Part shown: one piece after another, positions 40,773-46,413 of the stretch
Layout of the letters: every line of letters begins with the position of its first letter
Numbering within the stretch: the first letter of the stretch is position 1
NCBI GenBank assembly: GCA_011032825.1
Contig: JAADJZ010000006.1
Span: 1,860,001 to 1,924,000 of the forward strand
Direction of reading: 5' to 3'
Source of the DNA: Massariosphaeria phaeospora
Taxonomy: Eukaryota > Ascomycota > Dothideomycetes > Pleosporales
DNA length: 64,000 nt
Notes under the pieces: model-generated
Database searches by the model: none
The model's input: only the letters and a program-made list of their open reading frames with translations
What the model was told of the DNA's origin: nothing
Translations under genes and position numbers: made by a program

Positions 40773-40783
40773 TATATATATTT
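40773..40783 (+). promoter_or_regulatory. TATA box of the U6 gene
   Basis: tatatatattt lies 30 bp upstream of the predicted U6 5' end, the spacing used by TATA-dependent Pol III U6 promoters. Confidence 0.75.
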
Positions 40784-40802
40784 GTTCCGCGGCCACATTC
40801 TC

Positions 40803-40952
40803 GTTCTTCGGAACATTTGTCATTTCAACGATACAGAGAAGATTAGCATGGCCCCTGCACTAAGGATGACACGCTCAAGTACGTTCCAATCGACTCCATT
40901 CTGCCTTCAAGCATATCCTAACACGAACGCAGTCAAAGAGAAGCTACCATTT
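40803..40952 (+). ncRNA. U6: U6 spliceosomal snRNA gene interrupted by an mRNA-type intron
   Basis: Exons 40803-40878 and 40933 to about 40952, mature RNA about 96-100 nt. The 5' stem-loop gttcttcggaac (40803-40814) is followed by the catalytic core: ACAGAGA box at 40833-40839, AGC triad base at 40845-40847, and the internal stem-loop region ggcccctgcactaaggatgacac. The conserved core matches U6 of fungi such as S. pombe almost letter for letter. Between gctcaa and tcaaagagaagctacc lies a 54-bp insertion with gtacgt donor, cctaac branch point and cgcag acceptor (40879-40932). Removal restores a normal U6 3' end and the T9 Pol III terminator. The segment between the 5' stem and the ACAGAGA box is a few nt shorter than in S. 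pombe. TATA box upstream and B-box downstream support a functional locus. U6 introns are known in a few fungi (S. pombe, Rhodosporidium), but at other positions as I recall. Confidence 0.93.
40879..40932 (+). other. Spliceosomal intron inside U6 snRNA
   Basis: 54 bp, gtacgt...cctaac...cgcag: the same signals as the mRNA introns in this window. It interrupts U6 just 3' of the internal stem-loop. The intronless copy at 39364-39451 independently marks the same splice junction. Confidence 0.88.
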
Positions 40953-40958
40953 TTTTTT
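40950..40958 (+). terminator. Pol III terminator of U6
   Basis: Run of nine T directly after the U6 3' sequence gctacca. Confidence 0.85.
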
Positions 40959-40970
40959 GCTGGATCGATC

Positions 40971-40980
40971 GTTCGAGTCT
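40971..40980 (+). promoter_or_regulatory. B-box-like element downstream of U6
   Basis: gttcgagtct matches the Pol III B-box core GTTCGANTC and lies 12 bp after the T-run. Budding-yeast U6 also uses a downstream B box (farther away), and S. pombe has it inside its U6 intron, so a functional TFIIIC site here is plausible. Confidence 0.6.
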
Positions 40981-46364: not shown

Positions 46365-46389
46365 GCGAAAATATATTCTAAACCTATCC

Positions 46390-46413
46390 AAGAGAAGCTA
46401 CCATTTTTTTTGC
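46390..46413 (+). pseudogene. 24-bp fragment of the U6 3' end with T-run
   Basis: aagagaagctaccat followed by seven more T and gc is identical to the end of the U6 gene (exon 2 plus terminator, one T shorter). Sharing the bases beyond the T-run means it was copied from DNA and not from mature RNA. Confidence 0.6.

Follow-up and report, generated by a model that had tools for sequence, protein, structure and literature searches.

A U6 gene that appears to carry an mRNA-type intron raises two questions: whether the insertion is a spliced intron, and whether its removal would make the spliceosome depend on itself. We examined such a locus in a stretch of 64,000 nucleotides from the fungus Massariosphaeria phaeospora (Ascomycota, Pleosporales; contig JAADJZ010000006.1, positions 1,860,001 to 1,924,000; hereafter the window). 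Positions 40803-40958 of the window hold a U6 snRNA gene interrupted by a 54-bp GT-AG insertion (Table 1). The Rfam U6 model (RF00026) matches positions 40803-40900 on the forward strand with 63 bits, against a gathering score of 44, and the tail of this match is intron sequence. The gene reads as U6 up to CACGCTCAA, continues with 54 bases, GTACGT...CTAACACGAACGCAG, and is U6 again from TCAAAGAGAAGCTACCATTTTTTTTT. We consider it highly probable that this is a Pol III gene with a normal, spliced 54-nt intron that was gained by one paralog, and that it is one of 13 snRNA introns in this genome.

Table 1. Features of the split U6 gene, the two U6 relics near it and the insertions in U1 and U4. 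Positions are those of the window unless a locus is named.
Feature	Position	Strand	Remark
TATA box, TATATATA	40773-40780	+	30 bases 5' of 40803; read from the sequence
TATA box with adjoining conserved element, TATATATATTTGTTC	40773..40787	+	similar element in intronless U6 genes
U6 exon 1, 76 nt	40803..40878	+	5' stem-loop, ACAGAGA box, AGC triad, internal stem-loop; RF00026
U6 intron, 54 nt, spliceosomal type	40879..40932	+	GTACGT...CTAAC...CGCAG; missing from L001-L005
Branch-site motif of the U6 intron, CTAAC	40918..40922	+	read from the sequence
U6 exon 2	40933..40958	+	strand for U2/U6 helix II, then the 3' end closing in T9; read from the sequence
T9 terminator of the split U6 gene	40950-40958	+	read from the sequence
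Downstream B box, GTTCGAGTC	40971..40979	+	GTTCGAG common to L001-L004; final bases vary
U6 relic L005	39366..39466	-	Rfam 69.2 bits; without intron, TATA box or B box
U6 3'-end fragment, TCCAAGAGAAGCTACCATTTTTTTTG	46387..46412	+	pattern match, 1 mismatch over 23 bases
U4 intron after AUUCAAGU	L022:1452-1508		inside U4/U6 stem II
U4 intron after AUCCAAGUG	L023:1430-1505		inside U4/U6 stem II; one base off the L022 position
U1 5' end with a 52-nt intron between ATACTT and ACC	L042:1449-1506		GTACGT...CTAAC...TAG; boundaries set by hand

The boundaries of the insertion are set by comparison with the other U6 genes of the genome. Excision of the 54 nt restores U6, because the junction then matches that of four intronless paralogs, CTCAATC(A/G)AAGAGAAGCTACCA; the intronless copies read CTCAATCAAAGAG at this point, or CTCAATCGAAGAG in L003. 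The insertion follows nucleotide 76, one base ahead of the helix II strand, for which pairing with the 5' end of U2 is predicted. A sequence-only reading of this DNA had described a U6 gene that is split by a 54-bp mRNA-type intron on the 3' side of the internal stem-loop and has a TATA box at -30, a T9 terminator and a downstream B box. The Rfam match and the restored paralog sequence bear out its coordinates and description, the position beside the stem-loop is seen in the sequence, and all three Pol III signals are there, matching in kind those of L001-L004.

Several properties mark the insertion as a probable U2-type intron: GT...AG ends, a branch A 11 nt before the 3' end, which is a plausible branch-site distance, and a restored host RNA. 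A first-order Markov model of the window served to generate 400,000 random 54-mers, of which 8 fit the combination of GTRNGY, a branch site and YAG. The chance of the pattern is thus about 1e-4, allowing for five possible insertion registers (TCAA is repeated at the junction). A bleomycin hydrolase gene lies near the split U6 gene, at 36.2-37.8 kb of the window, and the protein record of the neighboring gene is consistent with an intron bearing the identical GTACGT 5' splice site. Against this, simple duplex calculations predict that the 5' end of U1 pairs weakly with the donor of the U6 intron (-2.8 kcal/mol) and with that of the U1 intron described below (-1.2 kcal/mol), compared with -12.0 kcal/mol for a generic consensus.

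The intron contains no TTTT, and we considered whether the absence of T runs is an adaptation to Pol III. We dropped this idea as uninformative, because TTTT is also missing from 40 of the 45 intron-like strings in the window. Single hits in that scan are themselves weak evidence, since 20 shuffles gave a mean of 31.9 such strings (largest, 42) versus the 45 found.

To place the split gene within its family, we searched the whole genome with RF00026. Six U6 matches were found with the best 47 of 1920 candidates scored, and none in 14 control genomes. Four of the six (L001-L004) are intact and intronless, one (L005) is a relic, and the last (L006) is the split gene, so that one of the five full U6 genes found is split. 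The intact genes have a TATA element 27 to 31 bases upstream of the 5' stem (-30 in L002 and L003, as in the split gene; -27 in L001; -31 in L004), a T7-T8 run and a B box. In all of them, as in the split gene, the GTTCGAG of the B box lies 20 to 21 bases past the first T of the run. Exon 1 from AACGATACAGAG to CTCAA is identical in L001-L003 and has two differences in L004, and exon 2, TCAAAGAGAAGCTACCA, is also present in L001, L002 and L004, with one base different in L003; the 5' region GTTCTTCGGAACATTTGTCATTTCAAC is specific to L006. The 300 bases upstream of the split gene, a stretch that takes in about 8 bases of the RNA itself, are similar to their counterparts in L001-L004, with a score reached by none or one of 200 shuffles. 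The 300 bases downstream, B box included, showed no significant similarity to those of the other U6 genes. Patterns for the ACAGAGA region, the internal stem-loop and the 3' end returned only the known copies and the 3'-end fragment, and thus no further split U6. One hit with three mismatches on contig C7 was rejected as a U6 copy, as it has no surrounding U6 sequence and looks coding by eye.

The intronless genes answer the second question for U6. The sequence-only reading had proposed a self-dependence loop, in which a Pol III transcript passes through the spliceosome it helps to build, and had suggested looking in the complete genome for an intact, intronless U6 gene. Four such genes are present, each having a promoter element, T run and B box like those of the split gene, and U6 can therefore be made without splicing; the loop is not upheld at U6, where these four may account for all U6 RNA or for part of it.

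The relic L005 lies 1.3 kb from the split gene in inverted orientation. Its TTTGTCATTTCAAC region matches the split gene alone among the six copies, and it carries changes at positions common to the other five. We judged it unlikely to be a functional gene because of these changes and because the TATA and B boxes are absent. Its features allow a further reading, namely that L005 was copied by way of RNA from the split gene's spliced transcript and would hence be a genomic fossil of splicing. The exact intronless junction, the shared TTTGTCATTTCAAC region and a similarity limited to the RNA (the flanks showed no significant similarity to those of any of the other five copies) are what such a copy would leave. 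However, the short distance and inverted orientation favor a local DNA duplication before the intron was gained, and neither a target-site duplication nor an A tail was seen by eye. We therefore hold the RNA-copy origin to be possible but doubtful.

The split U6 gene is not the only snRNA gene of this kind in M. phaeospora. Eight snRNA genes together contain 13 intron-like insertions: one in U1, nine in four U2 genes, two in U4 and one in U6. All are GT-AG, 45 to 76 nt long, with CTAAC or TTAAC 8 to 17 nt before the end; boundaries were set by hand so that the RNA is restored. Less usual ends are AAG in two introns of U2 stem-loop IIa, GAG in one, and a GTCAGT start in one U2 5' intron. Paralogs free of the intron are L001-L004 for U6, L021 and L024 for U4, L007 and L008 for the U2 5' site, and L007 and L011 for the U2 stem-loop IV site. 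The signals and the restored RNAs suggest that these insertions are spliced. Six of the 13, at four of the six sites, are within or directly beside segments that pair with another snRNA or with pre-mRNA: the U1 intron interrupts the 5'-splice-site recognition sequence, U2/U6 helix II is split by the U2 5' introns and bordered by the U6 intron, and the U4 introns divide U4/U6 stem II. The remaining seven are in U2 stem-loops IIa and IV, outside intermolecular helices.

U2 is the most heavily interrupted. Our search gave five matches (best 46 of 803 candidates scored), four of them full-length and one partial; the partial one, L011, consists of U2 promoter-like sequence and the 3' half of U2, without the branch-site-recognition core. 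The full-length genes have one (L007), two (L008), three (L009, on the minus strand) and three (L010) introns. All four carry an intron in stem-loop IIa, which starts 18 bases after the GUAGUA branch-site-recognition sequence, or 17 in L010, a one-base shift. L009 and L010 have an intron near the 5' end, after GCTCT, and L008, L009 and L010 have one in stem-loop IV. No intronless U2 was seen among the best 46 of 803 candidates that were scored. The 80 bases upstream of L008-L010 contain no match to TATA[AT]. An extra intronless copy of stem-loop IV was observed about 400 bases after the start of the U2 match in both L008 and L010.

With the nine introns removed, the four U2 sequences align without gaps over the slices compared (192 nt, the length cut for comparison rather than a measured U2 length). 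Two base pairs of the Rfam model change on both sides: pair 51-64 of stem IIa is U-A in L007 and L010 and C-G in L008 and L009, and pair 158-174 of stem IV is A-U in L007 and L008 and G-C in L009 and L010, with L007 being intronless at that site. Because these pairs join bases across the intron site, they suggest, if thinly, that selection acts on the joined, spliced U2 RNA; each case is one two-against-two difference among four genes, and further alignment columns follow the same division. Given the four sequences, RNAalifold folded the IIa region differently, and the outermost of the seven IIa pairs tested is non-standard in all four genes.

The U1 search gave a single match (best 41 of 580 candidates scored), with 38.3 bits, under the gathering score of 69.5. 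Its GAUCAAG and AUUGCAC motifs and a AAUUUUUG Sm-type site align to the U1 model, the predicted fold is consistent with the U1 four-way junction, and its TATA element and 3' motif resemble those of U4 and of U2 L007. The intron leaves a first exon of 6 nt (AUACUU/ACC), 37 bases after the start of the TATA element, and divides what we take to be the sequence that pairs with 5' splice sites. No intronless U1 was seen among the best 41 of 580 candidates scored.

Five U4 matches were found (best 41 of 2231 candidates scored). Two are split, L021 and L024 are intronless at the U4 intron site, and L025 is truncated. The distance from the TATA element to the first exon is similar in split copies (40 and 42 bases) and unsplit ones (43 and 46). 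With L021 and L024 intronless, U4, like U6, gives no ground for self-dependence. We know of no precedent for introns in U4. The single U5 match (best 46 of 2430 candidates scored) has no apparent intron. At this locus (L041, around 1470-1640) the upstream element resembles that of U6 (TATATATTTATTC, TATA at -27), a T7 run is present and the GAAGAAGA motif is missing, which suggests that U5 is transcribed by Pol III. That motif follows eight of the nine U1, U2 and U4 genes examined (L007, L008, L010, L021-L024 and L042) at up to 480 bases from the start, and is inexact in L009; perhaps it is a 3'-end processing box.

Together with the upstream resemblance to L001-L004, these observations point to the following account of the split U6 gene. 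Pol III would transcribe it, using an upstream TATA-type promoter and a downstream B box; the spliceosome would then excise the 54-nt intron from the primary transcript to leave ordinary U6. This paralog alone most likely gained the intron, since the four paralogs and the nearby relic are without it. The source does not appear to be a multi-copy, introner-like element: a DNA similarity search of the genome, and patterns over most of each half of the intron with up to three mismatches, found the intron itself and no second copy, and we rejected such an origin. The whole set of 13 would be explained if introns had reverse-spliced into RNAs that sit in the spliceosome. We put this forward as a proposal only, because no donor intron was detectable in the genome searches, and other routes of gain may account for the set.

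The direction of change could also be reversed: the ancestor of these U6 genes would have had the intron, and all but the split gene would have lost it, for instance when cDNA of spliced U6 recombined with them. Precise loss by way of spliced RNA is plausible, and L005, intronless and sharing its TTTGTCATTTCAAC region with the split gene alone, looks as a spliced-RNA copy would. This reading needs several losses against one gain, and the intronless genes have 5' regions and flanks of their own, which disfavors wholesale replacement; we regard it as unlikely. That the 54 bp are instead a disabling insertion and the split gene a young pseudogene, with all U6 made by the intronless four, is improbable: those four could suffice and the two nearby relics show that U6 copies decay here, but the splice signals are complete in a way that chance would rarely produce, the exons, promoter element, terminator and B box are intact where L005 has lost its TATA and B boxes, and other snRNA genes, the only U1 found among them, contain twelve introns of similar form.

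The idea of self-dependence fits the U1 and U2 genes of this genome better than it fits U6. It may be real there, because no intronless U1 or U2 was found among the best-scored candidates; an intronless copy should outscore the split ones and hence be among the matches listed. The fullest form of the argument is that U1, with its cap-proximal first exon ahead of the break in 5'-splice-site recognition, and U2, broken in IIa just past branch-site recognition, are encoded by split genes only. New U1 and U2 would then need a pre-existing spliceosome that already contains both, so that their function is inherited as a self-perpetuating state, while the paralogs with and without introns would record repeated insertion into spliceosomal RNAs, several times into pairing segments. 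We see an even chance that this is correct. Making a new spliceosome in M. phaeospora may thus require a working one.

How spliceosomal introns arose is a long-standing question, and those found within spliceosomal RNAs have classically been cited in favor of reverse splicing. Here split and unsplit paralogs stand side by side (U6, U4 and two U2 sites), and the insertion sites are therefore known to the base. Two further situations become open to test in this genome: a machine that has to process components of itself, and introns with a 5' splice site about 6 to 9 nt away from the expected 5' end of the RNA.

Among known systems, the closest to the split U6 gene is that of Schizosaccharomyces pombe, where U6 is encoded by a single-copy gene. 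Its mRNA-type intron (Tani and Ohshima 1989) lies near catalytic nucleotides, is removed by splicing and is presumed to have arisen by reverse splicing (PMC10484740). Both U6 genes have an intron of the spliceosomal type, here presumably removed in the same way; unlike in S. pombe, one of five full genes is split in M. phaeospora, at a site next to helix II on the 3' side of the internal stem-loop. A second precedent is the basidiomycete yeast Rhodotorula hasegawae, whose U1, U5 and U6 genes contain introns in addition to that in U2. The U2 gene of this yeast has an mRNA-type intron (Takahashi et al. 1993, as cited in PMC2586383), as do the U2 genes described here. In contrast to R. hasegawae, M. 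phaeospora is an ascomycete, has paralogs with and without introns, and carries introns in U4 as well.

Other fungi show that U6 introns are no isolated event. Canzler, Stadler and Hertel (2016, RNA Biol 13:119-127) surveyed fungal U6 introns and, as the title states, reported multiple insertions. The sequence-only reading had called U6 introns rare, but the available passages of PMC5832005 and PMC7827515 describe fungal U6 as often interrupted, the latter (citing Canzler et al. 2016) often by multiple introns. According to the former, no small structured RNAs other than U3 and U6 were known in 2017 to be often interrupted by an intron; it describes fungal U3 snoRNA genes whose canonical spliceosomal introns favor a small number of positions. 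The insertions here are likewise canonical-type introns in small structured RNAs. U3 acts outside the spliceosome, and therefore no circular dependence arises for it, unlike what may hold for U1 and U2 here.

Fungal U6 introns, and reverse splicing as their source, are thus ideas well established in these papers, and a split U6 gene alone adds no new kind, because U6 introns are already known in fungi. Topic searches of the open-licence full-text literature, made by subject rather than species name, returned no title or abstract opening on snRNA introns in Dothideomycetes. What is new, as far as that literature shows, is the combination in M. phaeospora: with no intronless U1 or U2 seen among the best-scored candidates, a single ascomycete carries introns in U1, U2, U4 and U6 and has paralogs both with and without them.
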